This document shows positions 1,532 to 28,242 of a DNA stretch of 33,451 bases, piece after piece. The position numbers and the translations under genes are program-made. Position 1 is the stretch's first letter, and each line of letters begins with the position of its first letter. The stretch spans positions 134,304 through 167,754 of the forward strand of contig JAEKDP010000008.1 in assembly GCA_016521575.1 (NCBI GenBank), written 5' to 3'. The notes below the pieces were generated by a model. It saw only the letters and a program-made list of their open reading frames with translations. It made no database searches and had not been told where the DNA came from. The stretch is from Rhodobacteraceae bacterium F11138. GTDB taxonomy: Bacteria > Pseudomonadota > Alphaproteobacteria > Rhodobacterales > Rhodobacteraceae.

Positions 1532-1540
1532 CCGCGATTA
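1532..1540 (+). repeat. Subterminal inverted repeat, right end of the IS1111-type element
   Basis: CCGCGATTA is the exact partner of 145-153. It lies 6 bp inside the right junction. Confidence 0.8.
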
Positions 1541-1572
1541 GACAACGCGGGCATAGCCTATCAGGGACATGA

Positions 1573-1585
1573 AAACGGGCCGTTT
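1573..1585. promoter_or_regulatory. Palindrome just upstream of the serine recombinase start
   Basis: AAACGG-G-CCGTTT is a perfect palindrome ending 2 bp before the ATG of the minus-strand recombinase. Serine resolvases commonly bind res sites overlapping their own promoters, so this could be part of a res/operator site. It also lies in the leader of the divergent SNF2 gene. The function is not demonstrated, and a chance 12-bp match cannot be excluded. Confidence 0.3.
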
Positions 1586-1687
1586 GCAATTTTATGTATC
1601 ACCAATAAACGACCGATTGATGGCAGAAGAATAACGTTTCGGAGGTTGGTGCCACCTTTTTTCTGTAAGTTCCACATAGGCGGCGCA

Positions 1688-9081: not shown

Positions 9082-9668
9082 CTGCCTGCCCCTGTCAGTT
9101 CCTCGTTCAGGGCATCAGGCTTGCATCCCGCGCCAGTGACAATTCCGAATAAATGAAGTTCGGAATTGCCCCTGACGCTCACCACTGGGGAAAATTCAAA
9201 CGGCGGTTCTGGGGAGATTACATCCGGCGGTTACAGGTGCTGACGGAGGCGCCGCGTGCCGAAGTGGTGGCGTTCGTCCTTGCTGACGCGTCCCTCGCGC
9301 AGGCGTTTGGTTTGGATCATGTCGTGCCGCTGCTCGCCCCAGCCCTGAAACGCGCCGCCCTACGCAAACGCGGGGACGACTTGCGGCTCGCCTGTCACCG
9401 CGCGCTCGTCTCATCAGCGGTCGAGGCCGCGCGTCTCGCCACAGACCTCGCGCGCCGGGCCGCGCATCTGAAAGCGGTCGCGCCCAAGCTTCGGGCCAAG
9501 GGCGCGGGCGACGCGGTCGAGATGTTCCTGACCCGCGATGCCGTGGCGCCTTCGGCCCTGCCTTTGCCGGACCGCGCCGCTCGGCGGCTCTGTGATCGGC
9601 TGGTCGACCTCGGTGCCGTGCGGGAGCTGACCGGGCGCGACACCTTCCGGCTCTACGGGGTTTGAGCG

Positions 9669-10265
9669 ATGGCGAAGGATCGCTCTGAACCCGACCTGGA
9701 CCGCGAGTTGGCCGACCTGCCGCCCGAACTGCGCTGGCGGGAATGGATGCGGCGGATCGAGGCCGTGCTCTTTGCAAGCGCCTCACCGGTGCCGCGCGAG
9801 GATTTGGCGCGGGTCGTGGGGCAGGGGGTGTCGGTGGACCTGCTGGTCGAGGATCTGGCCGCCGATCTGGAGGGCAGGGCGTTTGAAGTTGCGCAGACCG
9901 CCGGGGGCTGGATGTTCCGGACGCGGGCAGCCTACGCGCCTGCAATCCGCGCTGCGGCGGATGTCGGGGATCAATTGCTGGATCTGAGCGAGTTCGACGT
10001 CGCGGTGCTGGCCGCCATCGCCTATCACCAGCCGATTACGCGCGACGGGCTCAAGGACATCTTCGGCAAGGAGATCAGCCGTGACCTGATCGGGCGACTG
10101 CATGCGCGCAACCTGATCGGGACCGGGCCACGGTCGCCTCGACGTGGCGCGCCCTATACCTTCGTGACCACGGATCAGTTCCTGGTCGCCTTCGGGTTGG
10201 AGAGCCTGCGCGATCTTCCCGATCGGGGACAGCTAGAGGATGCGGGCCTGAGTATTGAACCCTAG
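9669..10265 (+). CDS. scpB: ScpB-like segregation/condensation protein
   Basis: Protein of 198 residues resembling ScpB, the paired winged-helix subunit of the SMC-ScpA-ScpB condensin. Family features include RRIEAVLFASASPVPREDLA (first winged helix, about residue 28), EVAQTAGGWMFRTR (the family's usual GGW/GGY turn), LDLSEFDVAVLAAIAYHQPI, and GRGLPY-like text near the end, seen here as RRGAPYTFVTTDQFLVAFGL. It starts 3 nt after the DUF1403 stop and is therefore in the same operon. No scpA or smc lies in the window. In housekeeping loci scpB normally follows scpA, so this copy is probably an accessory paralogue working with DUF1403 and the tyrosine recombinase. It converges with kynU. With IS21 in DUF1403, its expression may now be polar-affected. 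Confidence 0.82.
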   Translation: MAKDRSEPDLDRELADLPPELRWREWMRRIEAVLFASASPVPREDLARVVGQGVSVDLLVEDLAADLEGRAFEVAQTAGGWMFRTRAAYAPAIRAAADVGDQLLDLSEFDVAVLAAIAYHQPITRDGLKDIFGKEISRDLIGRLHARNLIGTGPRSPRRGAPYTFVTTDQFLVAFGLESLRDLPDRGQLEDAGLSIEP

Positions 10266-10320: not shown

Positions 10321-11562
10321 TCAGGTCACCGCGCCGCGAATGCGGAATCTGTCATCGTCCCATTCGCGGGTGGAGAGGATTGCCGACAAATATTCTGCCG
10401 CTTTTAGTACCTCGACAAAGCTGAGATAGAGGGGGGCAAAGCCGAAGCGCAGCGTGGATGGCGCGCGGAAATCGCCGATCACACCGCTTGCGGCCAGTGC
10501 CTGCATCACCTCGAAGCCGCCCATTTCGAGATCGAAGGACACATGGCTGCCTCGCTGCGTCTCCTCACGCGGGCTTGCCAGAGTGATCGGCTGACCCGCG
10601 CAAAGCTCCTCGACCGCCTCGATGAAGAATCCGGTCATCGCGCGCGATTTGGCCCAAAGCGCGGCCAGATCCACATCGGCCCAGAGTTTCAGCGCCTCAT
10701 CCAAAGCTGAAAGAGAAATCACCTGGGGGGTTCCGCAGACCAGTTTTCGCGCGCCCTCCGCAGGGGTGTACCCTCGCGTGAAATCGAACGGTGCGGCATG
10801 CCCCATCCAGCCCGAAAGCGGTTGGCGCATCGCTGAGACATGGCGTGGATTGACCCAGGCAAAAGCCGGGGCGCCCGGTCCGCCGTTCAGATACTTATAG
10901 CCACACCCGACTGCGAAATCGGCATCGGCTCCCAGCAGGTCGCAGGCGACGGCACCCGTGGTATGCGACAGGTCCCACAGCACGGCAGTGCCCTTTTCAT
11001 GGGCGTCTGCCGTGATGGCCGCCATGTCCCGGACCCGTGCAGAGCGATAGTCCACATGGCTCAGCAGCAGGACTGCGGTGTCATCGTCGATATGAGCAGC
11101 AGGGTTGTCGCCCTTTTCGAAATAGCGAAGCTCGATATCCGGAACGAGCGCGGCAAGCCCTTGGGCGATGTAACTGTCGGTCGGGAAGTTGTCGCCTTCG
11201 GCCAGGATCACTTTGCGCTCTGGCCGTAATTGCAGCGCGGCGGCAAGGCATTTGAAAATGTTGACCGAGGTGGAATCCCCGACAGAGACCTGCCCGGTGG
11301 CGGCGCCGATCAGCGGGGCGATCCGGTCGCCGGCGGTCATCGGCAGGGTGAACCATCCGGCCTTGCTCCAACTGCGGATCAGCCCTTCGGCCCATTCGCC
11401 GCGCGTGACCGAGGCGATCCGGTCGGCGGCGGCTTTGGGCATCAGCCCAAGGGAATTCCCGTCCAGATAGATAAGCCCCTCGGGCAGATGGAAAAGGTCG
11501 CGCTTGGCGGCGAGCGGATCCCTGGCATCCATGGCCGCGGCTGTTTTTGAAAGATCGCTCAT
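10321..11562 (-). CDS. kynU: Kynureninase (PLP-dependent)
   Basis: Fold-type I PLP enzyme of 413 residues that cleaves L-kynurenine to anthranilate and alanine. Family blocks are clear: IYLDGNSLGLMPK (about 31-43), EGDNFPTDSYIAQGL (about 122), LWDLSHTTGA with the PLP-ring Asp 197, and GCGYKYLNGGPGAP with the Schiff-base Lys 223. AGGAGA at 11570-11575 lies 7 nt upstream of the ATG. It is the last gene of a minus-strand operon after the acyl-CoA dehydrogenase and CoA transferase, with a 69-bp gap. No tryptophan dioxygenase, kynurenine formamidase or anthranilate-degradation gene is present, so a standard tryptophan-catabolic locus is not indicated. The enzyme may act on kynurenine released from a conjugate, or on a related beta-acyl amino acid; this is inference. 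Confidence 0.93.
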   Translation of the reverse strand: MSDLSKTAAAMDARDPLAAKRDLFHLPEGLIYLDGNSLGLMPKAAADRIASVTRGEWAEGLIRSWSKAGWFTLPMTAGDRIAPLIGAATGQVSVGDSTSVNIFKCLAAALQLRPERKVILAEGDNFPTDSYIAQGLAALVPDIELRYFEKGDNPAAHIDDDTAVLLLSHVDYRSARVRDMAAITADAHEKGTAVLWDLSHTTGAVACDLLGADADFAVGCGYKYLNGGPGAPAFAWVNPRHVSAMRQPLSGWMGHAAPFDFTRGYTPAEGARKLVCGTPQVISLSALDEALKLWADVDLAALWAKSRAMTGFFIEAVEELCAGQPITLASPREETQRGSHVSFDLEMGGFEVMQALAASGVIGDFRAPSTLRFGFAPLYLSFVEVLKAAEYLSAILSTREWDDDRFRIRGAVT

Positions 11563-11581
11563 GGGGACATCTCCTGATTTA

Positions 11582-11593
11582 CGGCATATGCCG
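11582..11593. promoter_or_regulatory. 12-bp palindrome between the CoA transferase gene and kynU
   Basis: CGGCATATGCCG is a perfect palindrome inside the 69-bp gap upstream of kynU. It could be an internal operator or a processing hairpin. It does not match the T-N11-A sites found upstream of the operon, and no function can be shown. Confidence 0.25.
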
Positions 11594-11631
11594 GGCTTGG
11601 GTGGTTCGAGGCTTTCGGAAAATTCTCCGGA

Positions 11632-12846
11632 TCACATGCCAAGCCGGGCGCGTGGCGCGATGCCAGCCTTGACCAGATCCTCAGCCTCAGCCTCGGAAAA
11701 GCCGAGCTCTGCGAGTATCTCGCCGGTATGCTCTGCGAAACGCGGCGGTCGGCGGCGGTAGTCTGGTGCGTTGCGACGGGGGCGGGCCGGCGCGCCGATA
11801 CCCTGATAACCGTCGATCTCGACTCGCATCTCGCGATGCAGCGTATGCGGATGCGCCAGGCTTTCGCCCACGTCCAGCACTGGCCCGGCGGGAACCCCGG
11901 CGCGGATCAGCCGTTCGGCAAGCACCCCGCCATCCAGCTCTGCCATTGCAGCTTCGAGCGCCGCGCGCAGCTCCTCTCGGTGGGTCACGCGCAACGCATT
12001 GCCGGCAAAGCACGGATGATCGGCGATTTCCGGAGCGCCGATCTCATTGCAGAGGTGGCGGAACTGCTGATCGTTCCCGATCGCTAAATAGATGGGTCTT
12101 GTTGCTGTCGCATAAGAGGAATAGGGTGCGATGTTTGGATGCGCATTTCCAGTTCTGCGTGGCAGTTTACCGGAGATCAGATAATTGGCGGCATGCGGAT
12201 GGAGCAATGACAGAGCACTGTCGAAGAGCGTGGCGTCGACGATCTGCCCCTGGCCGGTTTCCGCCCGCGCATGCAGTGCCAGCAGGATGCCGATCACCGC
12301 GTTGAGGCCCGTGACCATGTCCACCACGGGCAGGCCGACGCGCGTGGGGCCGCCCTCCTCGGTGCCATTGACGCTCATCAGGCCGCCCATGGCCTGAAGG
12401 ATCGCGTCATAGCCCGGCAGCCCCCCGAGCGGGCCATCGGCGCCAAAACCGCTGATCCGGCAATGGATCAGTCGCGGGAACCGCGCCGCCAGCACATCAT
12501 CATAGCCGAGCCCCCATTTCTCCAACGTGCCGATTTTGAAGTTCTCCACGAGGACATCCGCCTGTTCGAGCATCCGCAACAGCACCGCGCGGCCCTCCTC
12601 GCGGCGCAGGTCGAGCGCGATGCCGCGCTTGTTGCGATTGGCCCCGTCGAAATAGGAAGCGGTTTCTTCGCGGAACGGCGGACCCCAGTTGCGCGTTTCA
12701 TCTCCCATGGGGGGCTCGACCTTGATGACATCCGCCCCGTGGTCGCCCAGGATCTGCGTGGAAACCGGACCGCCCAGCACGCGGGACAGGTCGATGACGC
12801 GAATGCCTGTCAAGGCGCCGGTGTTCGGGCTGTCTGTTCCGATCAT
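11632..12846 (-). CDS. Family III CoA transferase (CaiB/BaiF type)
   Basis: Enzyme of 404 residues that moves CoA between an acyl-CoA donor and a carboxylic acid through an aspartyl-CoA intermediate. Signature parts are VIDLSRVLGGPVSTQILGDH near the N terminus, GADVIKVEPPMGDETRNWGP, NRNKRGIALDL, ENFKIGTLEKWGLGYD, and GLPGYDAILQAMGG, in which Asp 147 matches the catalytic Asp of the family. The ATG overlaps the stop of the upstream acyl-CoA dehydrogenase as ATGA, so the two are coupled. In this context it most likely activates a carboxylic acid before oxidation by the dehydrogenase. Substrate specificity cannot be predicted from sequence. Length is normal for the family. Confidence 0.93.
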   Translation of the reverse strand: MIGTDSPNTGALTGIRVIDLSRVLGGPVSTQILGDHGADVIKVEPPMGDETRNWGPPFREETASYFDGANRNKRGIALDLRREEGRAVLLRMLEQADVLVENFKIGTLEKWGLGYDDVLAARFPRLIHCRISGFGADGPLGGLPGYDAILQAMGGLMSVNGTEEGGPTRVGLPVVDMVTGLNAVIGILLALHARAETGQGQIVDATLFDSALSLLHPHAANYLISGKLPRRTGNAHPNIAPYSSYATATRPIYLAIGNDQQFRHLCNEIGAPEIADHPCFAGNALRVTHREELRAALEAAMAELDGGVLAERLIRAGVPAGPVLDVGESLAHPHTLHREMRVEIDGYQGIGAPARPRRNAPDYRRRPPRFAEHTGEILAELGFSEAEAEDLVKAGIAPRARLGM

Positions 12847-14567
12847 GCGACCACATCCAATACATCCGCAGCGGAGTCGAAAAACCGGGCGATTGCCTCG
12901 ACCTCACCGGGATCACGTTCCAGCGGATCGCGCGCCGAAAGCTTGTGACGCACCACATTGCGGGCCAGCGCCAGCCGGTTCCCATTGGCGTCGTTTCCGG
13001 TTCGGCGCAGCTGTGCGTCCTCCCAAGCCAGGATAGCGGCTGAGGTGGCGTTATAGACCGCCGTGGCGGCGGTACGCGTTTCGATTTCACGGTCGCGGTC
13101 GTGGGCGACGGCCTCCATCATTGCGGCGGCACGGGCGAAATGATCGATGATCTCGGGTAGCGGGCCGAGCGTCTCGCTTGCCCGCGCCGTCAGCTCGTCG
13201 ACATATGTCCGCAACGCGGAAAGCGCATCCTCGCGGCGCACCGCGCGCGCCACATCGAGCGCGACGATGTTGCTGGTTCCTTCCCAGATCGAGCCGAGAT
13301 GCGCATCACGCAGCACACGCGCATCAGACCATTCCTCGATATAGCCGCAGCCGCCGCGCACCTCCATGGCATCGCCCGCGACCTTGCGGGCGTCGCGGCA
13401 TGTGCGGAACTTCACGAGCGGTGTGAGGATCCGCAGCACCTTCTGCATCGCCTCGTCTCCGGCATCGGCACGCCGCAGGACATCGGCGGTATGGAAAACC
13501 ATCGCACGGCCCTGTTCGGCGGTGGTCGCCATCTTTATCAACTGCCGCCGCATCACCGGCAAGTCCACCAGCCGCTTGCCAAAAGCGGTACGGTTGCGCG
13601 CGATGAAAAGCGCTTCGGTCACCGAACGACGCATCAGCCCGGCAGAACGAACGCCATTCGCCAGGCGCGACATGTTGATCATGTCGGTCATTTGCTTGAA
13701 ACCTTGCCCCGCATCGCCGACGAGATAGGCCTCGGCCCCCTCAAGCGCGATCTCGCCGCTGGCCATGGACTTCGTGCCCATCTTTTCTTTCAAACGCAGG
13801 ATGCGATAGGCGTTGCGCCGCCCGTCGGGCAAATGGCGTGGCAGCAGGAACAAAGACAGGCCCTTCGTTCCAGTGTCGCCGCCCTCAGGGCGTGCCAACA
13901 CCATGCTTAGCGCGGCGTCGGGATTCGAGCAGAACCATTTGTCGCCGTATAGGCGCCAAACTCCGTTTTCGAACCGCGACACCGTGTCGATCGCGCCAAC
14001 GTCTGAGCCCGCGGCCTGTTCTGTCATGAACATCGAGCCCTGAAACAGCCTATCCATGTCCTGGCTGGTCAGTTGATCGATATAACGCGCCGCCAGCGCG
14101 GGGTCGCCAAACTTCACGAGCGTGCGGGTCAGAGAGTCGGTCATGCTGAGCGGACAGCAGAGGCCGAACTCTGCCTGAACAAACAGGTAGACTAGGGCGT
14201 ATTTGACGATCGGCGGCAGCTTGTCGTTTGCCCCGAAGACACCCGCCCGGTGCGACATGGCCGCCAGCCCGAACTCTCCAAAGGCATAGCGTTCAAGTTC
14301 ACGGTAATCCGGATGTTTCAAGATGCGCTCCTGATCGGCGCCGTTGCGAGAGCGGATGCGCAGCTCGGGTGGATTCTTGTCGGCAGACAGCGCCAGTTCC
14401 TCCAGATATCCGCCCGCGAGTGCGCCCATGCGTTCGAGATGTGGCCGCACCAGATCCCGCGTTTCAGCATCGAGATAAACGAGCATCAGACGCCACAAAT
14501 CCGGGTCAGCCTCAAACAGGTTCAATCCGGCACTGTCGGGGATGTTGCGATGTATCTCGGGCGTCAT
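12843..14567 (-). CDS. Acyl-CoA dehydrogenase family flavoprotein, AidB-like size
   Basis: FAD-dependent acyl-CoA dehydrogenase of about 574 residues, longer than the usual 380-400 and nearer to AidB-type members. Conserved parts include FMTEQAAGSDVGAIDT (flavin/substrate loop, about residue 180), MASGEIALEGAEAYLVG, QGFKQMTDMINMSRLANGVR, NRTAFGKRLVDLPVMR, and GGCGYIEEWSDARVLRDAHL followed by SIWEGTSNIVALDVARA, where the Glu (about 427) lies at the position of the catalytic base of medium-chain enzymes. A helical extension of about 120 residues follows. The start is set at ATG 14567 because AGGAGG (14574-14579) is 6 nt upstream; the first ATG at 14573 abuts that ribosome site. It is the first gene of the operon and is divergent from lysR. 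The substrate acyl group is unknown. Confidence 0.9.
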   Translation of the reverse strand: MTPEIHRNIPDSAGLNLFEADPDLWRLMLVYLDAETRDLVRPHLERMGALAGGYLEELALSADKNPPELRIRSRNGADQERILKHPDYRELERYAFGEFGLAAMSHRAGVFGANDKLPPIVKYALVYLFVQAEFGLCCPLSMTDSLTRTLVKFGDPALAARYIDQLTSQDMDRLFQGSMFMTEQAAGSDVGAIDTVSRFENGVWRLYGDKWFCSNPDAALSMVLARPEGGDTGTKGLSLFLLPRHLPDGRRNAYRILRLKEKMGTKSMASGEIALEGAEAYLVGDAGQGFKQMTDMINMSRLANGVRSAGLMRRSVTEALFIARNRTAFGKRLVDLPVMRRQLIKMATTAEQGRAMVFHTADVLRRADAGDEAMQKVLRILTPLVKFRTCRDARKVAGDAMEVRGGCGYIEEWSDARVLRDAHLGSIWEGTSNIVALDVARAVRREDALSALRTYVDELTARASETLGPLPEIIDHFARAAAMMEAVAHDRDREIETRTAATAVYNATSAAILAWEDAQLRRTGNDANGNRLALARNVVRHKLSARDPLERDPGEVEAIARFFDSAADVLDVVA

Positions 14568-14624
14568 GGTCATCCTCCTGCGCTAAGCCGCGAACTGGGA
14601 CCGGTCTCGCAGAACAAGGATATT

Positions 14625-14647
14625 CAATCCAATACCGTTATGGTATT
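14625..14647. promoter_or_regulatory. LysR-type operator in the lysR/acyl-CoA dehydrogenase intergenic region
   Basis: It begins CAATCCAATACC and contains the inverted repeat AATACC-N5-GGTATT (14631-14647). This includes a T-N11-A core (14633-14645), the classical LysR-family box. It lies between the divergent lysR and acyl-CoA dehydrogenase starts, where autoregulating LysR proteins normally bind. A close copy lies at 22679-22703 upstream of the ABC importer operon: 12 identical bases, then further matches through TATT. The pattern is seen directly; binding by this LysR is inferred. Confidence 0.68.
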
Positions 14648-14683
14648 CAGCAATAGTGAAATGAGAATGAATTAGGGGCTGCC

Positions 14684-15574
14684 ATGTCCGTCACATTCCG
14701 GCAGTTGCGTCAGTTTCTGGTGCTGTCGCAAGAGCTTCACTTTGGCCGCGCGGCGGTTCGGCTGGGCATATCGCAACCACCGCTGAGCACCAGCCTGCGC
14801 CAGATGGAGGAGCGGCTGGGTTTTGCGTTGATGGTGCGCAGCAGCAAGTCGGTCAGCCTGACGCCAGCGGGCAAGGTCTTTGCCGAGCATGCAGCGCGAA
14901 TTCTGGGGCAAATGGATGCGGCGCGCGCTGCGGCGGCGGATACCGCTCAGGGAATGGCGGGCGAGCTGACGGTCGCCTTCGTCCCCGCGATGCTCCTGCG
15001 ATACCTCCCGACCGAACTGCGGGCCTTTCGCGAGAGCCACCCGCAGGTGGAACTGGCACTGCGCGAGATGAACACGACTGAGCAAATCGAAGGGCTGCTC
15101 GATCACAGTGTCGATGTCGGCTTCGTTCACGCAGTGCCGTTCCCCGACGAAATCGAGCAACATGTGCTCGAAACCGAACGGCTGGTCTGCTGCCTGCCCC
15201 CCAATCACCGCTTGGCAGGGCGCAGCCGGGTGTCGATTACGGAGCTGGCGAGCGATCCCGTCCTAGTCTTTGCCCGTGATTTCGCAGCACAATATCACGA
15301 CAAGATTTCGGGCCTTCTCCATGCGGCAGGGATCGAACCGGCCTCGCGATTTCACATTCGCCACTGGTTCACGGTTGTCACGCTGGTGGCACAAGGAATG
15401 GGTGTGTCGCTTGTCCCAGCATCGCTTGCCCGCAGCAACTTTGTCGATGTCACCTATATTGAAATCGAAGAAGGTCAGGCGGAACATGACGTCGTGATGA
15501 TCTGGCGGCGTGGGGAAACCTCCAAGGCGTTGGCCGCGTTTCTTGCGCGTTTCGGCGTCACTGCGGATGTCTGA
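14684..15574 (+). CDS. LysR-family transcriptional regulator
   Basis: Regulator of 296 residues, standard LTTR length. The N-terminal winged HTH is textbook: FRQLRQFLVLSQELHFGRAA, then LGISQPPLSTSLRQMEERLG (about residues 5-48). The C-terminal part is the two-lobed periplasmic-binding-like effector domain (ELTVAFVPAMLLRYLPTELR, VDVGFVHAVPFP, LVAQGMGVSLVPASLA). It is divergent from the acyl-CoA dehydrogenase operon and ends 9 bp from the convergent M20 amidohydrolase gene, so it sits between the two minus-strand operons. AGGGG at 14674-14678 serves the ATG. The shared T-N11-A sequences upstream of both operons make it the likely local regulator, with a pathway intermediate as co-inducer. Confidence 0.93.
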   Translation: MSVTFRQLRQFLVLSQELHFGRAAVRLGISQPPLSTSLRQMEERLGFALMVRSSKSVSLTPAGKVFAEHAARILGQMDAARAAAADTAQGMAGELTVAFVPAMLLRYLPTELRAFRESHPQVELALREMNTTEQIEGLLDHSVDVGFVHAVPFPDEIEQHVLETERLVCCLPPNHRLAGRSRVSITELASDPVLVFARDFAAQYHDKISGLLHAAGIEPASRFHIRHWFTVVTLVAQGMGVSLVPASLARSNFVDVTYIEIEEGQAEHDVVMIWRRGETSKALAAFLARFGVTADV

Positions 15575-15583
15575 GGCTCGGAT

Positions 15584-16747
15584 CTACGGTTCGATGGGCA
15601 TTCGATTTTCGATGACGCGCACGAACCAACTGCTTCCAAAGGGCATGGCCTCGTCGTTGAATTCGTAGGCAGGATTGTGCAGCGGTGCGCTGTCACCATT
15701 CCCGACCCTCATGAAGGCGCCCGGGCGTTCCTGTAGCATGAAGGCGAAATCCTCGCTCCCCATAGACGGACCCTGCTCGACGAAATCACCCGATACCTCT
15801 AGGGCGGCCTCGATAGCGGCTTCGGTCTGTTCCGCACTGTTCTCCAGCAAAGGATACTTGCGCGTATAAACCACCTCTGCGGTCGCCCCATATGCGGCGG
15901 CGATTCCAACCGCAGTCTCCTTGATACGCGCTTCGGCCATATCCTGTTCGTGCCGATCCAAAGCGCGCGCGGTGCCCTGCAGGGTTACCGTTTCGGGAAT
16001 AACGTTTACGGCGTCTGAGTCGGATGTGAGCTGTGTAACCGACACCACCAGCGCATGGTTGGGATCGCTGTTGCGGGAAACGATGGCCTGCAGACCGACA
16101 ATGATCATCGCGGCCACCAGCATCGTATCCACGCTGCGATGCGGCTGTGCGGCATGGCCGCCAAAGCCCCGGATCTGAATGTCGAACACATCCCCTGCCG
16201 CCAGAAGCGGGCCCTGGCGGATGCCGAACTGGCCGATGCGCATCTTTGGGCCGTTGTGCAGGGCATAGACCTCGTCGATTTTCCAGCGATCCATCAGCCC
16301 GTCTTTGCACATGGCCAGCGCCCCGGCGCCGCCTTCCTCGGCCGGCTGGAAGATCACCACCACCGTTCCCGCGAAATTGCGCGTTTCTGCAAGGTATTTC
16401 GCCGCTCCGAGCAACATTGCCGTATGTCCGTCATGACCGCAGGCATGCATCAGCCCATCAATTTTGGACGCGTGGGCGAGGCCGGTCGCTTCGCGGATCG
16501 GAAGCGCATCCATATCGGCCCGCAGACCGACCGTCCTCGGCCCCGAGGTTCGGCCTTTGATGACACCGACGACGCCGGTTCGGCCGATCCCTTCCACAAC
16601 CTCGTCACAGCCGAATTCACGTAGTTTTTGCGCAACGATTCCAGCCGTACGGTGCGTGTCATAGAGCAGCTCCGGGTTGGCATGGAAATCCCGCCGCCAC
16701 GCCGTCATCTCGGGAAGCAGTTCGTTAAATCGGTTCTTGATAGGCAT
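15584..16747 (-). CDS. M20-family amidohydrolase (hippurate hydrolase/N-acyl amino acid type)
   Basis: Metal-dependent amidohydrolase of 387 residues related to HipO, which splits N-acyl or N-aroyl amino acids. Metal-site motifs are visible: RADMDALPI (about 85), MHACGHDGHTAMLLGAAKYL (about 108), QPAEEGGAGALAMCKDGL (about 142) and GSEDFAFMLQERPGAF near the C terminus (about 335), ending with an HNPAYEFNDEA block. The start ATG 16747 has AGGAGA 4-5 nt upstream; a longer in-frame start at 16819 would overlap the dppC-like gene and lacks support. It is the last gene of the ABC importer operon, 25 bp after the second permease. This places an intracellular amide hydrolase with a peptide-type importer. 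No signal peptide is seen. Confidence 0.92.
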   Translation of the reverse strand: MPIKNRFNELLPEMTAWRRDFHANPELLYDTHRTAGIVAQKLREFGCDEVVEGIGRTGVVGVIKGRTSGPRTVGLRADMDALPIREATGLAHASKIDGLMHACGHDGHTAMLLGAAKYLAETRNFAGTVVVIFQPAEEGGAGALAMCKDGLMDRWKIDEVYALHNGPKMRIGQFGIRQGPLLAAGDVFDIQIRGFGGHAAQPHRSVDTMLVAAMIIVGLQAIVSRNSDPNHALVVSVTQLTSDSDAVNVIPETVTLQGTARALDRHEQDMAEARIKETAVGIAAAYGATAEVVYTRKYPLLENSAEQTEAAIEAALEVSGDFVEQGPSMGSEDFAFMLQERPGAFMRVGNGDSAPLHNPAYEFNDEAMPFGSSWFVRVIENRMPIEP

Positions 16748-16772
16748 GTCTTCTCCTAACCTGTTCGCACCG

Positions 16773-17681
16773 TCAGTGGCCGCGAATACGCGGGTCCAGC
16801 GCATCGCGCAGCCCGTCACCTATGTAGTTGATGCTAAGCACTGTCAGCGAAATGAGGAATCCGGGCAGAATCGCACGCCCCGGGTAGTCCTGTAGATAGT
16901 CGATCCCGTCGCTGACGAGCCGCCCCCATGTTGCAAACTCCGGCGGAAAGCCGAGGCCCAGGAAGCTCAGCGCGCTTTCGGTCATGATGGCGGTTGCCAT
17001 CATGAGTGTTGCTGACACCATGATCGAGGACAGCACGTTCGGCAGAATATGACGCGGCATAATGCGCCAGGTGGGGACACCGATCGAACGTGCGGCCAGC
17101 ACGAATTCGCGTTCTTTCAGCGTCAGCACATCACTTCTGACCACGCGGGCCGTCCCCATCCAGGAGGTGAGCGAGATCGCCGCGACGATCAGCAACAATG
17201 TTCCCAGCTCGACTCCGAACACCGCCGAGAGCGGATCGCGAAACAGCATGGACAGCACCAGCAGGAGCGGCAGCAGCGGTAACGCAAGGAACAGATCCGT
17301 CAGCCGCATCAGCACCCCGTCGACCAGCCGAAAGAAGCCGGAGATCATTCCCACCGCGGTTCCGATCACAATCGAGAGGATCATTGCGGCGCTTCCAACG
17401 ACAAGCGAAATCCTCCCCCCCATCATCAGCCGCGCGAACAGGTCGCGCCCAAGCTGATCAGTGCCGAACGGATGCGCCAGAGACATGCCCTGATTGCGCG
17501 CGCCGATATTCACCGTCGAGGCATCTACAGGCCAGATCAGCGGGCCGATAAAGCACACAGCAAGGATCGTGGCAAAGACGATCATCCCGAAAAGCGCGCC
17601 GCGATGCGTCTTGAATTGCTCCCAGACATCCCACCACTGGCTGCGGGCGGCAAAGGTGAGGTCTTGCGTCATGTCAGTCAT
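16773..17681 (-). CDS. ABC transporter permease, DppC/OppC type
   Basis: Inner-membrane permease of 302 residues. A cytoplasmic N-terminal tail leads to a first membrane span (LFGMIVFATILAVCFIGPLI). The periplasmic loop carries AHPFGTDQLGRDLFARLMMG, characteristic of the DppC/OppC branch. The EAA coupling loop is LTLKEREFVLAARSIGVPTW, and the C terminus reads GDGLRDALDPRIRG, as usual. The start ATG 17681 overlaps the preceding permease gene by 8 bp; the longer in-frame start at 17717 overlaps more and has no ribosome site. It pairs with the DppB-like permease to form the channel. Confidence 0.92.
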   Translation of the reverse strand: MTDMTQDLTFAARSQWWDVWEQFKTHRGALFGMIVFATILAVCFIGPLIWPVDASTVNIGARNQGMSLAHPFGTDQLGRDLFARLMMGGRISLVVGSAAMILSIVIGTAVGMISGFFRLVDGVLMRLTDLFLALPLLPLLLVLSMLFRDPLSAVFGVELGTLLLIVAAISLTSWMGTARVVRSDVLTLKEREFVLAARSIGVPTWRIMPRHILPNVLSSIMVSATLMMATAIMTESALSFLGLGFPPEFATWGRLVSDGIDYLQDYPGRAILPGFLISLTVLSINYIGDGLRDALDPRIRGH

Positions 17682-18684
17682 AGCGAATCCTCGGATCGAG
17701 TAGGCCGTAAAGCACATCGGCCACGAGATTGAAGAAGACGACGAGCGCGGCGAAAATCACCGAGAGCGTCATCACTGTCGGAACGTCTGACGCGTAAATC
17801 GATGTGATGAGGAGCTGGCCGATTCCATTCACGCGAAACAGCTGTTCGGTGATGATCGCCCCGGTGAAAACGGTCGGAAATCCAAGGGCGATGACGGTCA
17901 CCACGGGGATCATGGAATTGCGCAGTACATGCACGAGCAAGACGACGCGTTCGGTCATCCCCTTCGCCCGTGCGGTGCGAACATAGTCCTGCCCCAGATT
18001 GTCGAGGACGGATGCCCGCACGAAACGGCTGATCTGGGCCAGGTTCAGCAGGGACAGCACAGCGACCGGCAGGATCATCTGGCGCACCTGCAGCCAGAAG
18101 CTGGACCAGTCGCTGACGGTCAGCATCGTGTCATAGACCGTCGGAAACCAGCCCAGCCAGATCGAGAAGACCAGGATCAGCACGGGACCCGTGAAAAACG
18201 AAGGTAGAGAAAAGCCGGCCATCGAGATGAGAACGCCGAACTGATCGAACCAGCCATATTGGCGGTAGGCGGAATAGATGCCGATCGGAAGCGCCAGCAA
18301 GGTGCCGACAAGATAGGAGAGCCCGACAACCCAGAGGGTCTGGGGCAAACGCTGCATGATGAGATCTGCAACGGGAGACCGGGTTTGAAAGGAAATCAGC
18401 CGCGGTCCCTCAATTGCCAGGTTGTCCAGCCCCGTGGCGGCGGCAAGCATGTGGCTGGGCTCCACAACCGCGAACAGGTAAAGCCACCGCAAAAAGCGGA
18501 CATACCACGGATCGCCCAGACCAAGCGCGGCACGAAGGCCCTCGCGGACGTCTTCTGGAATGCTCAACGGCAGTTGAGACATCGGGTCGCCCGGCGACAA
18601 TTCGAGCAAGAGGAAGATCGCCAACGCAATGACGAGGAGTGTCGGCACCATCAAAAAAAGACGGCGCAGTGTAAACGTCAACAT
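17674..18684 (-). CDS. ABC transporter permease, DppB/OppB type
   Basis: Inner-membrane permease of 336 residues with the usual first span (LRRLFLMVPTLLVIALAIFL), then LSPGDPMSQ, typical of the DppB/OppB branch. Further hydrophobic spans follow near residues 120, 150, 210, 260 and 310. The EAA loop is DYVRTARAKGMTERVV, and the C terminus LYGLLDPRIRYD is canonical. Compared with E. coli DppB, the first periplasmic loop (about residues 40-105) has additional hydrophobic text (LRWLYLFAVVEP). It lies 63 bp downstream of the binding-protein gene in the same operon. Confidence 0.92.
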   Translation of the reverse strand: MLTFTLRRLFLMVPTLLVIALAIFLLLELSPGDPMSQLPLSIPEDVREGLRAALGLGDPWYVRFLRWLYLFAVVEPSHMLAAATGLDNLAIEGPRLISFQTRSPVADLIMQRLPQTLWVVGLSYLVGTLLALPIGIYSAYRQYGWFDQFGVLISMAGFSLPSFFTGPVLILVFSIWLGWFPTVYDTMLTVSDWSSFWLQVRQMILPVAVLSLLNLAQISRFVRASVLDNLGQDYVRTARAKGMTERVVLLVHVLRNSMIPVVTVIALGFPTVFTGAIITEQLFRVNGIGQLLITSIYASDVPTVMTLSVIFAALVVFFNLVADVLYGLLDPRIRYD

Positions 18685-18747
18685 ACCGGTTTTCCTTGGA
18701 ATGAAGGCCGACCGAGGCTACACAATTCCCCGGCCGGCGCTCATCAA

Positions 18748-20454
18748 TCAGTTTGCGCGACGCCAATCGGCGATATTCCAGAGCTCCGATCCCCAAGGGT
18801 TCATTCGGACTCCTTCCAGCGTGTTCGCTCGGGCGGAAATCTGACTGCGGTGGATAAGTGGCAGCACGATATAGGATTGAATGATGATGTCGTTCAGCTT
18901 CTTGAAGATCTCCTGGCGGGCGCTAGGCGAGGCGGTCTGACGCAGCGTGTCGAGCAGCGTGTCATATTCCTCGCTGCAGAAGCGCGGAACGTTGGTGCCT
19001 TTCCAATGCGTTTCCGGCCTGGGCTCTGCCCCGCAGCGCAGGGCATTGAGGTACGTCTCGGGATCGATGCCAGTAAAACCGTTGGTGAAAATCTGCACAT
19101 CTGCATAGAATTTCCGAAGCGTATCCGGCGAGGACACGTCACCACCGAAGAACACGGATGCATTGATGTTGCGCAGCTCGGTATCGACACCGATTTCACT
19201 CCACCACTGCTTGATCAGTACCTGAAAGTCCTGACGGACCGGGTTGGTTGGGGCCTGGAACAGGAGTTCCAGCCGCTGCCCGTCCTTCGCGCGAACCCCA
19301 TCCGGCCCCGGGACCCAGCCCGCCTGATCGAGAAGGGCCCGCGCCGCATCAAGCTGTTGTTGTACGCATCCGTCATTGTTAGGCGACCGGAAAATCTCGG
19401 GACTTTCAAGCACATTGCAGGCCGGTTTCCCGGTCCTGCCATAGCCGATGTCGACAAGGACATTTCGATCAATAGCCAGACTAAGCGCCTTGCGTACATT
19501 CAGGTCCGACAGTACGGGATTCGCCTTTTTGCGTGTCGAACGCGTGTCCGGATCCAGATCAGGCGAAGGATCGGTCAAGTTTAAGGTGATCTGCTCGATC
19601 ATCGGCCCAAATGCGATAACCGGCTCCCCTTGAGAGCCTTTCGACAGACGTTCCAGAACCTCGGGCGCAACCTGAGTATTGATCGCATAATCCATTTCGC
19701 CGGTTTCAAGCACGGTACGCGCGGCCGAAACCGCATCGCCGCCGCCCTTCATGACCAGACCGGAAAAGGCCGGCTTGTCGGCCTCCCGGTAATATGGGTT
19801 CGCCTCCATCTTCAGGACGTCGTTCGGCATGAAATCGGTAAGACGGAAGGCGCCAGTGCCGATCGGGAAGAAATTGGCTTCGGTGCATTGCAGCGCCTTC
19901 TTGCCAATACAATTTTCGAACTGCGCTTTTTGCAGGATCGGTGTCGATGCCCCGACAAAGAGGTTGAAAGGATTGGCTTCTGGCTGCTTGAACGTGATTT
20001 TCACCGTCTGTGCATCGACGGCATCCACCGACTCGATGTTCGTGAAACTACCCAGTTGGGCGCAGCCAGTGCTGGGTTCCATGCAATAGGATGCAGTGAA
20101 TGCCACATCCTCCGCCGTGAAAGCGGAACCATCGGACCAAAGAATATCGCCGCGCAGTTTCCAGGTAACCGTTTTCAGATCCGGCGAAATACCACCATTC
20201 TCTACGGACGGAATGACCTGAGCCAGCCGGGGCAGCATCTCAGCCTTTGGGTTAATACGTGCCAGAGGCTCGAGAACGATCGACGAGGCGATCTTTTCCT
20301 TGATCCCTCCGGACAGGTAGGGGTTCATCAAAGACGGGGCTTGCCAGAAGATCATTCTGAGCTCTCCGTCTGAACCTCTCTCGGCCATAAGCGTTGTCGG
20401 CAAAACCATAAGCGACGACAAAATCGTGCCGGATATCCACTTTCTCATTCTCAT
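18748..20454 (-). CDS. ABC transporter substrate-binding protein, family 5 (peptide/opine/nickel)
   Basis: Periplasmic binding protein of 568 residues. The Sec signal peptide spans about residues 1-24 (MRMRKWISG, then a hydrophobic core, ending TLMA before ERGS). The mature protein has SBP_bac_5 features: AEDVAFTASYCMEP (the usual TAEDV block), DAQTVKITFKQPEANPF, FFPIGTGAFRLTDFMPNDVLKMEANPYY, LNVRKALSLAIDRNVLVDIGY, and a C-terminal YIVLPLIHRSQISA. AGGAGAGG directly precedes the ATG. The family binds oligopeptides and many other compounds, so the ligand is open. It sits third in the operon, between the ATPase pair and the permeases. Confidence 0.93.
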   Translation of the reverse strand: MRMRKWISGTILSSLMVLPTTLMAERGSDGELRMIFWQAPSLMNPYLSGGIKEKIASSIVLEPLARINPKAEMLPRLAQVIPSVENGGISPDLKTVTWKLRGDILWSDGSAFTAEDVAFTASYCMEPSTGCAQLGSFTNIESVDAVDAQTVKITFKQPEANPFNLFVGASTPILQKAQFENCIGKKALQCTEANFFPIGTGAFRLTDFMPNDVLKMEANPYYREADKPAFSGLVMKGGGDAVSAARTVLETGEMDYAINTQVAPEVLERLSKGSQGEPVIAFGPMIEQITLNLTDPSPDLDPDTRSTRKKANPVLSDLNVRKALSLAIDRNVLVDIGYGRTGKPACNVLESPEIFRSPNNDGCVQQQLDAARALLDQAGWVPGPDGVRAKDGQRLELLFQAPTNPVRQDFQVLIKQWWSEIGVDTELRNINASVFFGGDVSSPDTLRKFYADVQIFTNGFTGIDPETYLNALRCGAEPRPETHWKGTNVPRFCSEEYDTLLDTLRQTASPSARQEIFKKLNDIIIQSYIVLPLIHRSQISARANTLEGVRMNPWGSELWNIADWRRAN

Positions 20455-20508
20455 ATTTCCTCTCCTGCTGCTTCGTTTTTTTCGCCCATCCGGTTTTCGG
20501 GGGCGTCT

Positions 20509-21483
20509 TTAGTCATTCAGATGGCATGCCGAGTACTGCCCAGGCGCGACAGCCTTTAACTCTGGTTCCGTTGTGCGGCAGATATCCATGACATGCGGGC
20601 AGCGCGTGCAGAAGTTGCAGCCCTTCGGCGGGTTTGCCGGCGACGGAAGGTCACCTTTCAGCACTTCGCGCGGCGCGTCTGCTCTCCGTGACGCCACCGC
20701 GCCGGGCACGGCGGACAACAGCGCTTTGGAATAGGGATGGCTCGGCCGTTGATAAAGCAGCTCGGTATCGGCCAGTTCAACGATCTTGCCCAAATACATG
20801 ACGGCGACCCGGTCAGCGATATGGCGAACCATCGAGAGATCGTGGCTGATAAAGAGATAGGTCAGCGAGAATTGTTCCTGCAGATCTTTCAGCAGGTTGA
20901 CAACCTGCGCCTGAATCGAGACGTCAAGCGCGGCGATCGGTTCATCGCAGACGATAAAGTCCGGGTTCAATGCCAGCGCGCGCGCGATACCGATACGCTG
21001 ACGCTGGCCGCCCGAAAAAGAACTGGGATACCGGTTGAGAAACGCGCGATTGAGCCCCACGGCATCCATGAGCTCGCAAACCCGAGCGATCAAAGCTCTA
21101 CGCTTCAGGTTGGCATGCTCATTCAGTGGTTCAGAGATAATTTCGGACACGGTCATTCGGGGGTTCAGGCTCGCCTGCGGATCCTGGAACACCATCTGCA
21201 TCCGTGTTCTGATCGCGCGCATTTCTTTGTGCGACAGCGCGGTGACCTGACGACCATCAAAGACCACCTCTCCTGAGCTGGGCTCGCTCAGCCTGAGTAA
21301 TCCACGACCGCAGGATGATTTCCCGCAGCCGGATTCCCCCACCAAGCCCAGGGTTTCGCCTTTGAATATGTCGAAGCTGACACCGTCGACGGCCTTCACG
21401 CTGCCGATCTGGTGCCGCAGCAGCCCCCCGTAAATCGGAAAATGCAGCTTCAGGTCGCGGATTTCGAACAGCGGCTCAGACAT
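20509..21483 (-). CDS. ABC transporter ATP-binding protein, DppF/OppF type
   Basis: ATPase of 324 residues. Walker [19 protein letters not shown] (about 50), Q-loop [20 protein letters not shown] signature [17 protein letters not shown], Walker [20 protein letters not shown] and H-loop [15 protein letters not shown] are all intact. The C-terminal oligopeptide/dipeptide domain carries the Cys-rich motif [15 protein letters not shown], which in related proteins binds an iron-sulfur cluster. The start at ATG 21483 ([11 protein letters not shown]) overlaps the end of the DppD-like gene by 8 bp. The DppF branch is indicated by the FPIYGG-type N terminus and the length. Confidence 0.93.
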
Positions 21484-22513
21484 GTTCGGCGACCTCCCGG
21501 AGCGGATAGTGGCAGGCCACGTCATGGCCGTTGCTCAAAGGCTGCCGGCGCGGCAGCTCTTGCGCACAGCGCGCGCGCGCGTGGCCGCATCGCGCCCGGA
21601 AGGCACAGGATTGCGGCGCTTCAGTCAGGATCGGCGGCATGCCCTCGATCGCCCGAAGGCGCTCTTGCTTCGCCCCTCCCGCACGGGGCATCGTGGCAAG
21701 CAGTGCGCGCGTATAGGGATGCGCCGGCTGTGCGAAGAGCGCGTCGACCGGCCCGTGTTCGATCACCTGGCCAGCATACATCACCAGGACCCGGTCGGCG
21801 ATTTCTCGGACCACATTCAGATCATGCGTCACCCAGATAACAGCCATGCCCAACTTGCTCTGCAATTCGCGCATCAACTCGATGATCTGCGCCTGAATTG
21901 TGACATCCAGTGCGGTCGTCGGTTCATCCGCGATCAGGACGGCGGGATCACAGGCCAGGGCCATCGCGATCATGACACGCTGGCGCATGCCGCCGGAGAA
22001 CTGATGCGGGTATTCGTCCACCCGCCGGGCCGGGTCCGGTATCCCAACAAGAGCCAGAAGTTCGACAGCGCGGTCGTGTGCCCCGCGGCGGCTCATCCCC
22101 AGATGCTGGCGCAACGGTTCCATAAGCTGGAAACCAACGGTGAATACGGGGTTCAGCGAGGTCATCGGGTCCTGGAATACGAACCCCACTTTCTTGCCCC
22201 GCAGATCGCGCAACGCACCTTCGTCGAGCTTGAGCAGATCCTCGCCTCCCAAAAGAACTTGGCCGCCGCGCAGCTCTACGGGCGGAGACGCCAGCAAACG
22301 GATCAGCGACATCATGGTCACCGATTTGCCCGAGCCGCTTTCTCCCACGACGCCCAGCGTTTCCCCCGCGTTGATCTCGAAACTGACCGAATTAACCGCG
22401 TGGACCGTTCCGCTGCGCGTGTGGATAACCGTCTCAAGATCGCGGACTTCGAATAACGGAGCGCTAGCGTGGATGCCCGCCGTAGTGGGCTTCTCAAGAT
22501 GGGAATTGGACAT
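21476..22513 (-). CDS. ABC transporter ATP-binding protein, DppD/OppD type
   Basis: ATPase of 345 residues starting at ATG 22513 ([10 protein letters not shown]). The frame is open to 22681, but the upstream part reads through the leader and operator region, so the shorter start is chosen. Walker [19 protein letters not shown]-loop [18 protein letters not shown], signature [17 protein letters not shown], Walker [19 protein letters not shown] and H-loop [16 protein letters not shown] are intact. The C-terminal tail contains [15 protein letters not shown], the iron-sulfur-type Cys motif of this subfamily. It is the first gene of the six-gene operon and lies about 166 bp downstream of an operator copy. 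Confidence 0.93.
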
Positions 22514-22678
22514 CTTATCTGTTTCTTTCAGCAACGGTCTGAGGTCTGTGAAGCCGACACCTGGATAAGGATGCGGCAACCAGTGATTGTTCCTTTCAGA
22601 GGCCAAGCCTCGGGGTGGCACAGTTGCCTCACTCTCCAGTCTGCGATTTGGAAGATTTTCTGGCAGACAGTTGACATG

Positions 22679-22703
22679 CAATCCAATACCATTGCGATAT
22701 TGG
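22679..22703. promoter_or_regulatory. Second LysR-type operator copy upstream of the ABC importer operon
   Basis: It begins CAATCCAATACC, identical over 12 bases to 14625-14636, and continues with conserved TT, G and TATT positions. It contains the perfect arms CCAATA (22683-22688) and TATTGG (22698-22703) and a T-N11-A core at 22687-22699 in the same register as the first copy. It lies 166 bp upstream of the DppD-like start, with no gene between. Its right side borders transposon debris, so debris insertion may have replaced sequence upstream of the promoter. Confidence 0.65.
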
Positions 22704-25884: not shown

Positions 25885-27375
25885 AGGAGTTGGGTGTCTC
25901 CCGTAGTTCTGCCTGGGATTTCTATCGCAGACTGAAGCACAACGACGGGCGATCGAGCGCGCTACTGCCGAAGCGTCGCGGCCCAAAACATGGGTCGCGT
26001 CGCTTGGGGCAAGAAGTGGAAGGCATAATCGAAAAGGTTTTGCGCCAACATTACTTGGTGCCGGAACCTCCCAGTTTCTTGAGGATCGTGGGTGAGGTTC
26101 GGGCCGAGTGCGTTTCTCGGGGCTTTCGACCGCCAACCCGTCGTACGATCAAGGCTCGTCTTGACGCGATGGACCAACGCGAGGTGCTGCGGAAGCGGAA
26201 AGGGGCGAAAGTGGCGAGGCAGGTGTTCGAGGCGAGGGCAGGGCGTTTGGGCGTGGAACGCCCCTTGGCGGTCGTTCAGATCGATCACACTTTGGCGGAC
26301 ATCATTCTCGTCGATCAGGTCGAGCGCAAGCCCTTGGCCCGACCATGGCTGACGCTTGCGATCGATGTGGCGACCAGGATCGTTCTGGGTATTTACGTTA
26401 GCTTCGACGCGCCATCGGTTCTGTCCATTGGCCTGTGTCTGGATCACTGCGTTCGGCAGAAGTCGATCCGCACGCCGGAGGCTCTGGATGAGTTGTACTG
26501 GCCAGCAGCCGGAATTCCCCAAGCCATCCACGTTGACAACGGGCGGGACTTTCGCAGCGATGCCTTCCAATCGGCCTGCAAAGAATGGGGAATCAAAGTC
26601 GAGTACAGGCCGCCAGGTCGGGTGCATTTTGGCGGTCACATTGAGCGTCTGATCGGGACGACCATGGGTGCCGTGCATGTGCTGCCTGGAACGACGCAAT
26701 CGTCGCCGAAGGACAAGGGTGAGTACGACAGCGCTGGTAAGGCCGCCATGACGCTGAACGAGTTCGAGGACTGGATTCATCTCGAGATTTGCCGCTATCA
26801 CAACACACGCCACAGTGGCCTCGGACGAGCCCCGTTGGCAGCTTGGGCGGACCTTGGTGGCGATGATGCCGGTCGGCAGGTCATTGATACCGAGGCTTTC
26901 CGCATAAGTTTTCTTCCTTCGGAACGTCGACAACTGGGACGGACCGGGATCAATCTGTTTTCGGTGGGCTACTGGAACGATGCGTTCGGGCCGATGATCG
27001 GCCGCGGCGCCGGGAGGGTCACGGTCAAGTATGACCCCCGCGATATGTCCCAGGTTTGGGTCATCACGGAGGACGGGCGCACAGTTGCAGCGCGCTACAA
27101 GGACCTCTCACGGCCGCGGATCTCACTTTGGGAGTCGCGTCGCGCCAGGGCGATCTATCATGAGCGCCATGGCGGATCGATCTCGGAGGCGATGCTGTTT
27201 CGGATTATCGAAGAACAGCGCCGTATAGCTCACGCTGCCCGGCAGCAAACGCTGTCAGCGCGATTGGAAGGCGAACGCCAGGCGCGGCTTCCGAGCGACA
27301 AGCCAAAGCGTGATCCGTCCCGCGAGATGTTCGCGATTGATACCAGCAACCCTGACCTTCCCACTTACCCGATTG

Positions 27376-28242
27376 ATGATTTTGATGGACTCCGACGAAA
27401 GACTTGACCTCATTCGCAGCGATCGCTGGATCGCGTTTGACCGCGCGACAATTGTTCTCAACAGACTGATATCCTTGATGGAGATGCCTCGGCAGTCCCG
27501 GATGCCGGGTCTCATGGTCTATGGCAGTTCCGGGATTGGCAAAACCATGGTCGCCAAGAGGATGGAGGGTCTCTATCCCTCCGAGTACGCCTCTGACATG
27601 GGGGTCACTCGCACGCCGATCTTGCTCTTGCAGGCGCCACCGGCACCGGATGAACGGCGGTTTTACCAGCACATTCTCGCGTCGATCGGCGCACCCATGT
27701 GGGGTAGGCACACGGTGTCCGAACTGGAGGTGAGGGCCCTCAGCCACTTGCGTGACATGGATCTCAAGATGATCATGATCGACGAGGTTCATAACCTGCT
27801 GGCGGGGAGCTATCGGGAGCAGCGGCGCTTCCTCAACATGCTGCGGTTCCTGGCCAATGATCTTTGCGCATCCCTCGTCGTGTTTGGCGTCAACGAAGCC
27901 GTCGATGCCATTCGGGGCGACGAGCAATTGGCTCGCAGGCTCGATGAGCACTTCCTCCCGCTCTGGGAGGACGACGTTGAGTTTTCGCGTCTTGTCCAGA
28001 CCCTGATCGCTGCGATGCAGTTGGAACGCGGATCGGGCCTGAGCGTCCAATCGCTACGGACCATTCTGGGTGTGACGGGTGGCGTCACATCTCGTGTCTT
28101 CACGATGATCAAGGCGCTGGCCATTGACGCGATCGAGACCGGCGAGGAGCGGATTACCGATGAGGCCATTCAAACCTGGCAGCCTGTCTGGGCCAAGTAC
28201 AGCTGGAACATTCGGCGACAACCATTGCCGGCGTTTCAGTGA
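27376..28242 (+). CDS. tniB: TniB, AAA+ ATPase of the transposon (TnsC-like)
   Basis: ATPase of 288 residues. Walker A is VYGSSGIGKTMVA (about 49), Walker B is KMIMIDEVHNLLAG (about 131), and sensor/arginine-finger regions are in VVFGVNEAVDAIRGDEQLARR. TniB binds target DNA and activates TniA, like TnsC in Tn7 and MuB in Mu. ATG 27376 (MILMDSDERL) or ATG 27385 could start it; both overlap the end of tniA, as expected for coupled genes. Its stop overlaps the tniQ start (GTGA). The length is near that of Tn5053 TniB (about 302). All motifs appear intact. Confidence 0.93.
   Translation: MILMDSDERLDLIRSDRWIAFDRATIVLNRLISLMEMPRQSRMPGLMVYGSSGIGKTMVAKRMEGLYPSEYASDMGVTRTPILLLQAPPAPDERRFYQHILASIGAPMWGRHTVSELEVRALSHLRDMDLKMIMIDEVHNLLAGSYREQRRFLNMLRFLANDLCASLVVFGVNEAVDAIRGDEQLARRLDEHFLPLWEDDVEFSRLVQTLIAAMQLERGSGLSVQSLRTILGVTGGVTSRVFTMIKALAIDAIETGEERITDEAIQTWQPVWAKYSWNIRRQPLPAFQ

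Follow-up and report, generated by a model that had tools for sequence, protein, structure and literature searches.

A putative two-operon LysR regulon with importer, amidohydrolase and kynureninase genes in a Rhodobacteraceae genome

Ten genes of Rhodobacteraceae bacterium F11138 encode a LysR-type regulator, a peptide-type importer, an M20 amidohydrolase, a CoA-transferase, an acyl-CoA dehydrogenase and a kynureninase, and raise the question whether they serve one catabolic pathway or are genes of different origin set under one regulator. They occupy positions 10321–22703 (the island) of a stretch of 33,451 nucleotides, the window, which makes the end of contig 27 (134304–167754 of 167,754 bases) in a genome of 4.48 Mb and 28 contigs. 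The ten genes are strongly inferred to form one LysR regulon of two operons, with predicted LysR binding and co-transcription. The reading favoured here, to which we give about an even chance, is that the island is a chimera of three modules flanked by insertion sequences (IS), put under one LysR and recently assembled in a Rhodobacterales genome, and not a conserved pathway; its substrate and reactions are predicted from the enzymes encoded.

Two operons and a paired operator-like sequence

All ten genes were confirmed at the positions originally predicted, and Pfam matches above the gathering score were obtained for every protein. NCBIfam cut-offs are passed by the kynureninase and the M20 amidohydrolase; the other eight proteins pass none, LysR, OppF and OppD among the best 25 of 51, 187 and 187 matches, respectively. 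Family motifs are intact in KynU, CoA-transferase, dehydrogenase and M20. The ATG starts of M20 and oppD were picked by eye. The features are as follows.

10321–11562, minus strand: kynureninase of the divergent clade B, third gene of operon 1 (TIGR01814, 282 bits, cut-off 246)
11632–12846, minus strand: class III (CaiB-type) CoA-transferase (PF02515, 405 bits; NF052585, 353 bits versus 750)
12843–14573, minus strand: AidB-like acyl-CoA dehydrogenase, first gene of operon 1 (PF18158, PF00441)
14625–14646: putative LysR operator 1, between the LysR and dehydrogenase genes (ATACCATAACGGTATTGGATTG on the minus strand)
14684–15574, plus strand: LysR-type regulator (PF00126, PF03466)
15584–16747, minus strand: M20-family aminoacylase/amidohydrolase, last gene of operon 2 (TIGR01891, 332 bits, cut-off 154)
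16773–17717, minus strand: OppC-type permease (PF00528, PF12911)
17674–18684, minus strand: OppB-type permease (PF00528, PF19300)
18748–20454, minus strand: family-5 solute-binding protein (PF00496, 210 bits)
20509–21525, minus strand: OppF-type ATPase (PF00005, PF08352)
21476–22513, minus strand: OppD-type ATPase, first gene of operon 2 (PF00005, PF08352)
22679–22700: putative LysR operator 2, 166–187 bases upstream of the oppD start

In operon 1 the dehydrogenase gene overlaps the CoA-transferase gene by 4 bases, and kynU follows after a gap of 69 bases. Operon 2 is made by oppD, oppF, the binding-protein gene, oppB, oppC and the M20 gene, in this order. The two operons flank LysR, as had been described; their orientation can now be specified, LysR being transcribed away from the dehydrogenase operon and towards the importer operon.

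The operator-like sequence said to be shared by the operons is a 22-base motif, CAATCCAATACC-N-TT-NN-G-N-TAT, found at 14625–14646 and 22679–22700, one copy before each operon. With up to three mismatches allowed, the motif has exactly two matches in the 4.48 Mb genome, both at the island promoters, and its backwards control has none; the pattern was written from its two sites, and the scan thus shows only the absence of a third. A shorter form, ATACC-N5-GGTAT, matches three times in the window if one mismatch is tolerated (0.14 expected), and two of these matches are at the island promoters. The regions upstream of the two operons align with a score of 30, reached by none of 2000 dinucleotide-shuffled pairs (mean 15.8, maximum 29).

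The same site marks related loci. Relatives of the dehydrogenase occur at E≤1e-150 in 12 of 390 genomes of the order and one of five genomes of the genus, at E≤1e-120 in 35 of 385 genomes of the class, the F11138 genome being counted each time and the only one in its genus. The neighbourhoods of 29 such genes were compared, from six of the top eight plasmid records (of 1414 matched), all 11 other order genomes, and 12 class loci in 11 of the 34 other class genomes; flanks measured up to 10–15 kb, and several were shortened by contig ends. A triad of divergent LysR, dehydrogenase and CoA-transferase was found in nine of these loci. The sequence ATAC-N7-GTATTGGA lies in the gap between LysR and dehydrogenase in five of the nine, from four organisms: without mismatch in L086 (Tritonibacter), L087 (second Tritonibacter record, printed gap), L139 (G257) and L141 (G064), with one mismatch in L183 (G425). 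These five are exactly the triads in which TAXI-TRAP transporter genes stand behind the CoA-transferase gene.

Related Opp stretches differ. No operator-type site with up to two mismatches was found in L149 to L152, and the one match in L153, at two mismatches, is positioned behind the Opp genes. Since none of these stretches has such a site at its Opp promoter, the operator upstream of oppD looks acquired.

In the 69-base gap between the CoA-transferase gene and kynU no terminator was listed, by a scan that is weak, its sites being no more numerous than in shuffled sequences. Given this 69-base gap, the lack of a listed terminator and an AGGAGA before kynU which resembles a ribosome site, kynU is probably co-transcribed with operon 1 under the same LysR. 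A scan for sigma-70-like promoters listed none at either operator (one was found, against 4.1 in shuffles). Control of both operons by one LysR, as originally proposed, is well supported by the operator pair, unique in the genome, and by the same site in five of nine related LysR–dehydrogenase gaps.

Relatives of the three modules

The modules are found apart from each other elsewhere. Neither kynU nor M20 genes were detected near the dehydrogenase gene in any of the 29 loci (tblastn, E≤1e-8), no CoA-transferase gene near kynU in the best 80 of 536 confirmed kynU loci (E≤1e-15), and the full combination in no other locus examined. A single co-conserved pathway, which by the terms of the original prediction hangs on the recurrence of the set in other genomes, is not borne out. 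Among the 80 kynU loci, weak dehydrogenase matches in L032 and L044 (32–33% identity) and an M20 match in L039 (52%) were rejected as further copies of the set. Among the titles listed by full-text searches of the literature, none describes this gene set; subscription journals lay mostly outside the search, and novelty of the combination is provisional.

The first module is the core of LysR, dehydrogenase and CoA-transferase. In 11 of the 29 loci a CoA-transferase gene, 63–72% identical, adjoins the dehydrogenase gene or is separated from it by about one gene, and the island LysR is 57–66% identical to the divergent LysR of L086, L087, L137, L139, L141 and L183. With its divergent LysR, neighbouring dehydrogenase and CoA-transferase genes, and operator, the island core belongs to the same module. 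The CoA-transferase is a class III enzyme (PF02515, 405 bits) with Asp176, presumably the catalytic residue, within VVDMVTG; its best NCBIfam model, succinate–glutarate CoA-transferase NF052585, is matched at 353 bits, short of 750. The dehydrogenase has an AidB_N domain above its cut-off; it reaches 232 bits against the 545 of the AidB model (PRK11561, NF008594), and its identification as the AidB repair protein was rejected on this account.

TAXI-TRAP genes directly follow the CoA-transferase gene in five of the nine triads, and are thus not defining for the whole module. TRAP genes also lie a few kb from the core in L138 and L140, which have no LysR match and carry two open reading frames without match in the profile search of core neighbours. 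Profile searches revealed no TRAP gene among the ten island genes. ABC-transporter genes of other kinds reside in some of the 29 loci, the best at 53% identity. In Tritonibacter L086 the TRAP genes are followed by a thiolase of the 3-oxoadipyl-CoA type (pcaF, 671 bits, cut-off 597; PRK09050, 714 bits, cut-off 605), a 65% relative of which is found in L137 together with an MFS transporter and a FadB/J-like protein. Because of these thiolase neighbours, the core most likely runs, by analogy, the first steps of a dicarboxylate (adipate-like) beta-oxidation. The F11138 genome has a 3-oxoadipyl-CoA thiolase above cut-off on contig 1.

A related dehydrogenase on a Limimaricola variabilis plasmid (L085:7773–18065) is accompanied by TAXI-TRAP genes, a two-subunit CoA-transferase, citryl-CoA lyase, CoA ester lyase, nitronate monooxygenase and MmgE/PrpD. 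This set is possibly a CoA-based tricarboxylate or dicarboxylate route.

The second module is an Opp/Dpp peptide importer, made by two permeases, two ATPases and a family-5 binding protein, followed by an M20 amidohydrolase. The Opp proteins reach no equivalog cut-off in the matches listed. The M20 protein exceeds the TIGR01891 cut-off (332 versus 154 bits) and carries HACGHDGH, PAEEG and GGHAAQPH, which we take to be the metal-site motifs; its kin in the PDB include YxeP, IAA-amino acid hydrolase ILR1-like 2 and N-acyl-glutamine aminoacylase. Degradation of indole-acetate conjugates, suggested solely by kinship to the IAA-amino acid hydrolase, was rejected. Binding-protein relatives at E≤1e-100 are widespread, being present in 305 of 390 order genomes, F11138 included. 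Five of 29 other Opp loci, chosen for an oppF gene beside a binding-protein gene at 62% identity or more, were examined at length, and in four of them M20 genes (57–64% identity) lie near the Opp genes. Such clustering would suit a system which imports and hydrolyses N-acyl amino acids or small peptides. Further M20 genes occur in L150 and L152; in L150 (13218–19901) the Opp operon has at least three M20 genes and a DAO-type FAD oxidoreductase on the opposite strand.

The kynureninase exceeds the TIGR01814 cut-off (282 versus 246 bits); only one other of the 390 order genomes has a match at E≤1e-150. In a tree of 85 rows, the window KynU and six others form clade B, apart from the remaining 78 rows with support 100/100; the KynU of L091 sits on a long branch. 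Residue 168 (window numbering) is S in all seven clade-B rows and T in all 78 others. Residue 71, the presumed counterpart of an isoleucine that lines the pocket of human kynureninase, is F in all seven and I in 55 of the 78. Among the six other clade-B loci, an alpha/beta hydrolase gene stands directly beside kynU in four (L001, L002, L003, L091), a TDO-like (tryptophan dioxygenase-like) gene is present in three (L003, L009, L091), and genes for a gentisate-type dioxygenase and an FAH-type hydrolase in two (L009, L091); L004 has none of these. Such neighbours suggest that clade B belongs, at least partly, to a second, TDO-like route, which perhaps serves ring-hydroxylated tryptophan. The window kynU stands outside this context.

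Two clade-B loci deserve description. L091 (388–17653; contig 9 of F11138, 8387–25652) features a divergent TDO-like gene (30% identity to canonical TDO), an alpha/beta hydrolase, clade-B kynU, a gentisate/5-aminosalicylate-type dioxygenase, an FAH-type hydrolase, a nitrilase and two sulfatases, parts of which recur in Rhodosalinus L003 and in the Rhodoferax metagenome-assembled genome L009; it possibly degrades sulfated or hydroxylated tryptophan via 5-hydroxyanthranilate. In a Bugula neritina symbiont (L001:5419–15298) kynU faces genes for an AMP-forming CoA ligase, acyl-CoA dehydrogenase, enoyl-CoA hydratase, SDR, methyltransferase and FMN oxidoreductase.

No TDO or formamidase gene accompanies kynU among the ten island genes. 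The claim that other tryptophan-to-anthranilate genes are missing holds for the genes scanned in the window, and not for the genome, in which a TDO–kynU pair resides on contig 26 and the TDO-like/hydrolase/kynU set on contig 9. When the genome was searched for formamidases, three genes of the cyclase family were returned, of which none was shown to encode a kynurenine formamidase. The TDO-linked KynU falls outside clade B. That the window kynU acts only in standard kynurenine turnover is weakened by this difference of clade, and the standard kynurenine route was rejected for the island, given the clade of its KynU and the lack of TDO and formamidase among its genes. Opp and canonical kynU genes are loosely linked on contig 26, an arrangement which recurs in L151 and was set aside; of eight contig-26 proteins tried, only KynU and two permeases have partners there.

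Proposed assembly of the regulon and its rivals

Assembly of a regulon from separate modules is the most economical account. The old core, made by LysR, acyl-CoA dehydrogenase and class III CoA-transferase, would have lost or never acquired its TRAP importer, the Opp importer taking its place; the Opp–M20 operon would have come under the operator of the core LysR, and kynU would have settled behind the CoA-transferase gene. Opp would import an amide conjugate, and M20 would release from it an amino acid and an acid. Beta-oxidation of the acid half would be started by the CoA-transferase, probably using succinyl-CoA, and the dehydrogenase. KynU would cleave the other half, a kynurenine-type gamma-oxo-alpha-amino acid, yielding alanine together with an aryl (or acyl) acid, and housekeeping beta-oxidation enzymes would complete the degradation. 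The enzymes encoded agree with the steps originally listed: uptake, hydrolysis of an amide, CoA activation, oxidation and cleavage of the kynureninase type. The regulatory link makes joint function of both operons likely, and the enzymes present suggest an amide conjugate with an acid half to be CoA-activated and oxidised and a kynurenine-type amino half. It is a speculative extension that the substrate belongs to an undescribed class of natural conjugates, in which an amide bond links a dicarboxylic acid to an amino acid of kynurenine type, perhaps ring-hydroxylated, the TRAP importer of an adipate-type LysR having been replaced by Opp–M20 through operator capture.

Several observations weigh against the chimeric regulon. 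As the full set was found in no other locus examined, no evolutionary coherence supports a pathway, the partners of kynU elsewhere are other genes, and the window kynU may be a hitchhiker. CoA-transferase and dehydrogenase pass no equivalog cut-off by which a substrate could be assigned. At E≤1e-150 the dehydrogenase is absent from all four genus mates, and its Limimaricola relative has neighbours different from those of the core. Four of the nine triads (L088, L089, L090, L137) lack ATAC-N7-GTATTGGA at zero or one mismatch; the gap of L089 has one match with two mismatches, the other three none. The originally proposed N-acyl aromatic amino acid is a possible substrate, but the Tritonibacter thiolase points to a dicarboxylate; against the latter, the MFS protein of L137 is nearest to aromatic-acid symporters, though far below the cut-off (155 bits versus 419). 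An AidB homologue of C. basilensis has its sole significant phenotype on adipate, but this is positive, loss being beneficial, and does not demonstrate a catabolic role (PMC12543098).

The main rival, which we regard as possible though less than probable, takes kynU for a passenger. LysR would control a two-part regulon, the acid-oxidation core and the Opp–M20 uptake of conjugates (N-acyl or peptide), and kynU, left by transposition, would do separate kynurenine work. The absence of kynU from the 29 dehydrogenase loci, the IS elements close to the island, the two other kynU genes on contigs 26 and 9, and the hydrolase or TDO-like partners of clade-B kynU elsewhere all speak for a passenger; the 69-base gap, the AGGAGA and the lack of a listed terminator, which make co-transcription probable, speak against it. 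An unlikely explanation, overlapping with the favoured one, is that Opp imports kynurenine-containing peptides or N-acyl kynurenine, arising for instance by photo-oxidation of protein, that M20 cuts them and that cleavage by KynU follows, CoA-transferase and dehydrogenase dealing with the acyl half, whatever its nature. A peptide-type importer and M20 found with a kynureninase above cut-off fit such substrates, as does M20 kinship to N-acyl-glutamine aminoacylase and IAA-amino acid hydrolase, but no specific sign of them was seen, and plain kynurenine may not be the best substrate of a clade-B KynU with F71. The original prediction, by which the genes make up a single conserved and so far undescribed pathway that degrades N-acylated aromatic amino acids, appears improbable: the shared operator and the complementary enzymes agree with it, but the set is co-conserved in no locus examined, and the CoA core is kin to operons of dicarboxylate-type appearance.

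Flanks of the island and known systems

Mobile elements stand on both sides of the island. Those on one side, the left, are IS110, a SNF2 helicase, an XerC/D-like recombinase and IS21; on the right are IS3, IS256 and a tniABQ-type transposon. The latter (25890–29198) has three genes, encoding a Mu-transposase C domain protein, TniB and TniQ, and adjoins IS256 and IS3. The helicase (1520–5113; 1197 amino acids, SNF2 family), placed between IS110 and the tyrosine recombinase, is kin, below cut-offs, to SCO1167-type and ZorD helicases. Directly beside IS21, a short open reading frame without NCBIfam match and a ScpB-like protein (TIGR00281, 77.6 bits, cut-off 89.2) at 9153–10265 are perhaps a truncated extra ScpAB pair. 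When the island was searched by megablast against 72,556 plasmid records, 17 records matched with a best coverage of 10%, and a known plasmid-borne copy of the whole was rejected on this search. Plasmid-borne kynU (153 records) and M20 (1240 records) were set aside, all matches being below 60% identity.

If correct, this account would offer a clear example of how a catabolic regulon can widen, a second operon having received the operator of a regulator already present. Taken together, the modules would then narrow the substrate to an amide that joins a CoA-activatable acid to an amino acid of kynurenine type. The analysis also brought out a separate kynureninase clade, in part linked to a TDO-like gene.

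Among known systems, the closest to the core are the LysR/dehydrogenase/CoA-transferase/TAXI-TRAP operons of Tritonibacter mobilis plasmids (L086, L087) and of L139, L141 and L183, which resemble it in the divergent LysR (57–66% identity), dehydrogenase (72–76%), CoA-transferase (70–72%) and operator. They differ by the TAXI-TRAP genes, by the thiolase in Tritonibacter, and by having neither kynU nor M20 in the stretches read. The Opp–M20 clusters L149, L150, L152 and L153 share the order OppD, OppF, binding protein, OppB, OppC (57–74% identity) and a nearby M20 gene; in contrast to the island, their M20 genes are on the other strand, and no LysR operator marks their promoters. KynU proteins of the clade-B loci (contig 9 L091, Rhodosalinus L003, Rhodoferax L009, L001, L002, L004) are 62–69% identical to the window KynU, and none of these loci has an island-type CoA-transferase or AidB-like dehydrogenase. 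The KynU of the contig-26 pair (L092) is of the same enzyme family, but is 48–49% identical, outside clade B, and adjoins a TDO above cut-off. In the dicarboxylate beta-oxidation of beta-proteobacteria, LysR genes likewise adjoin acyl-CoA dehydrogenase genes and matter for C6–C12 diacids, on which phenotypes were found, and the one AidB homologue of that system is set apart from the conventional acyl-CoA dehydrogenases (PMC12543098).

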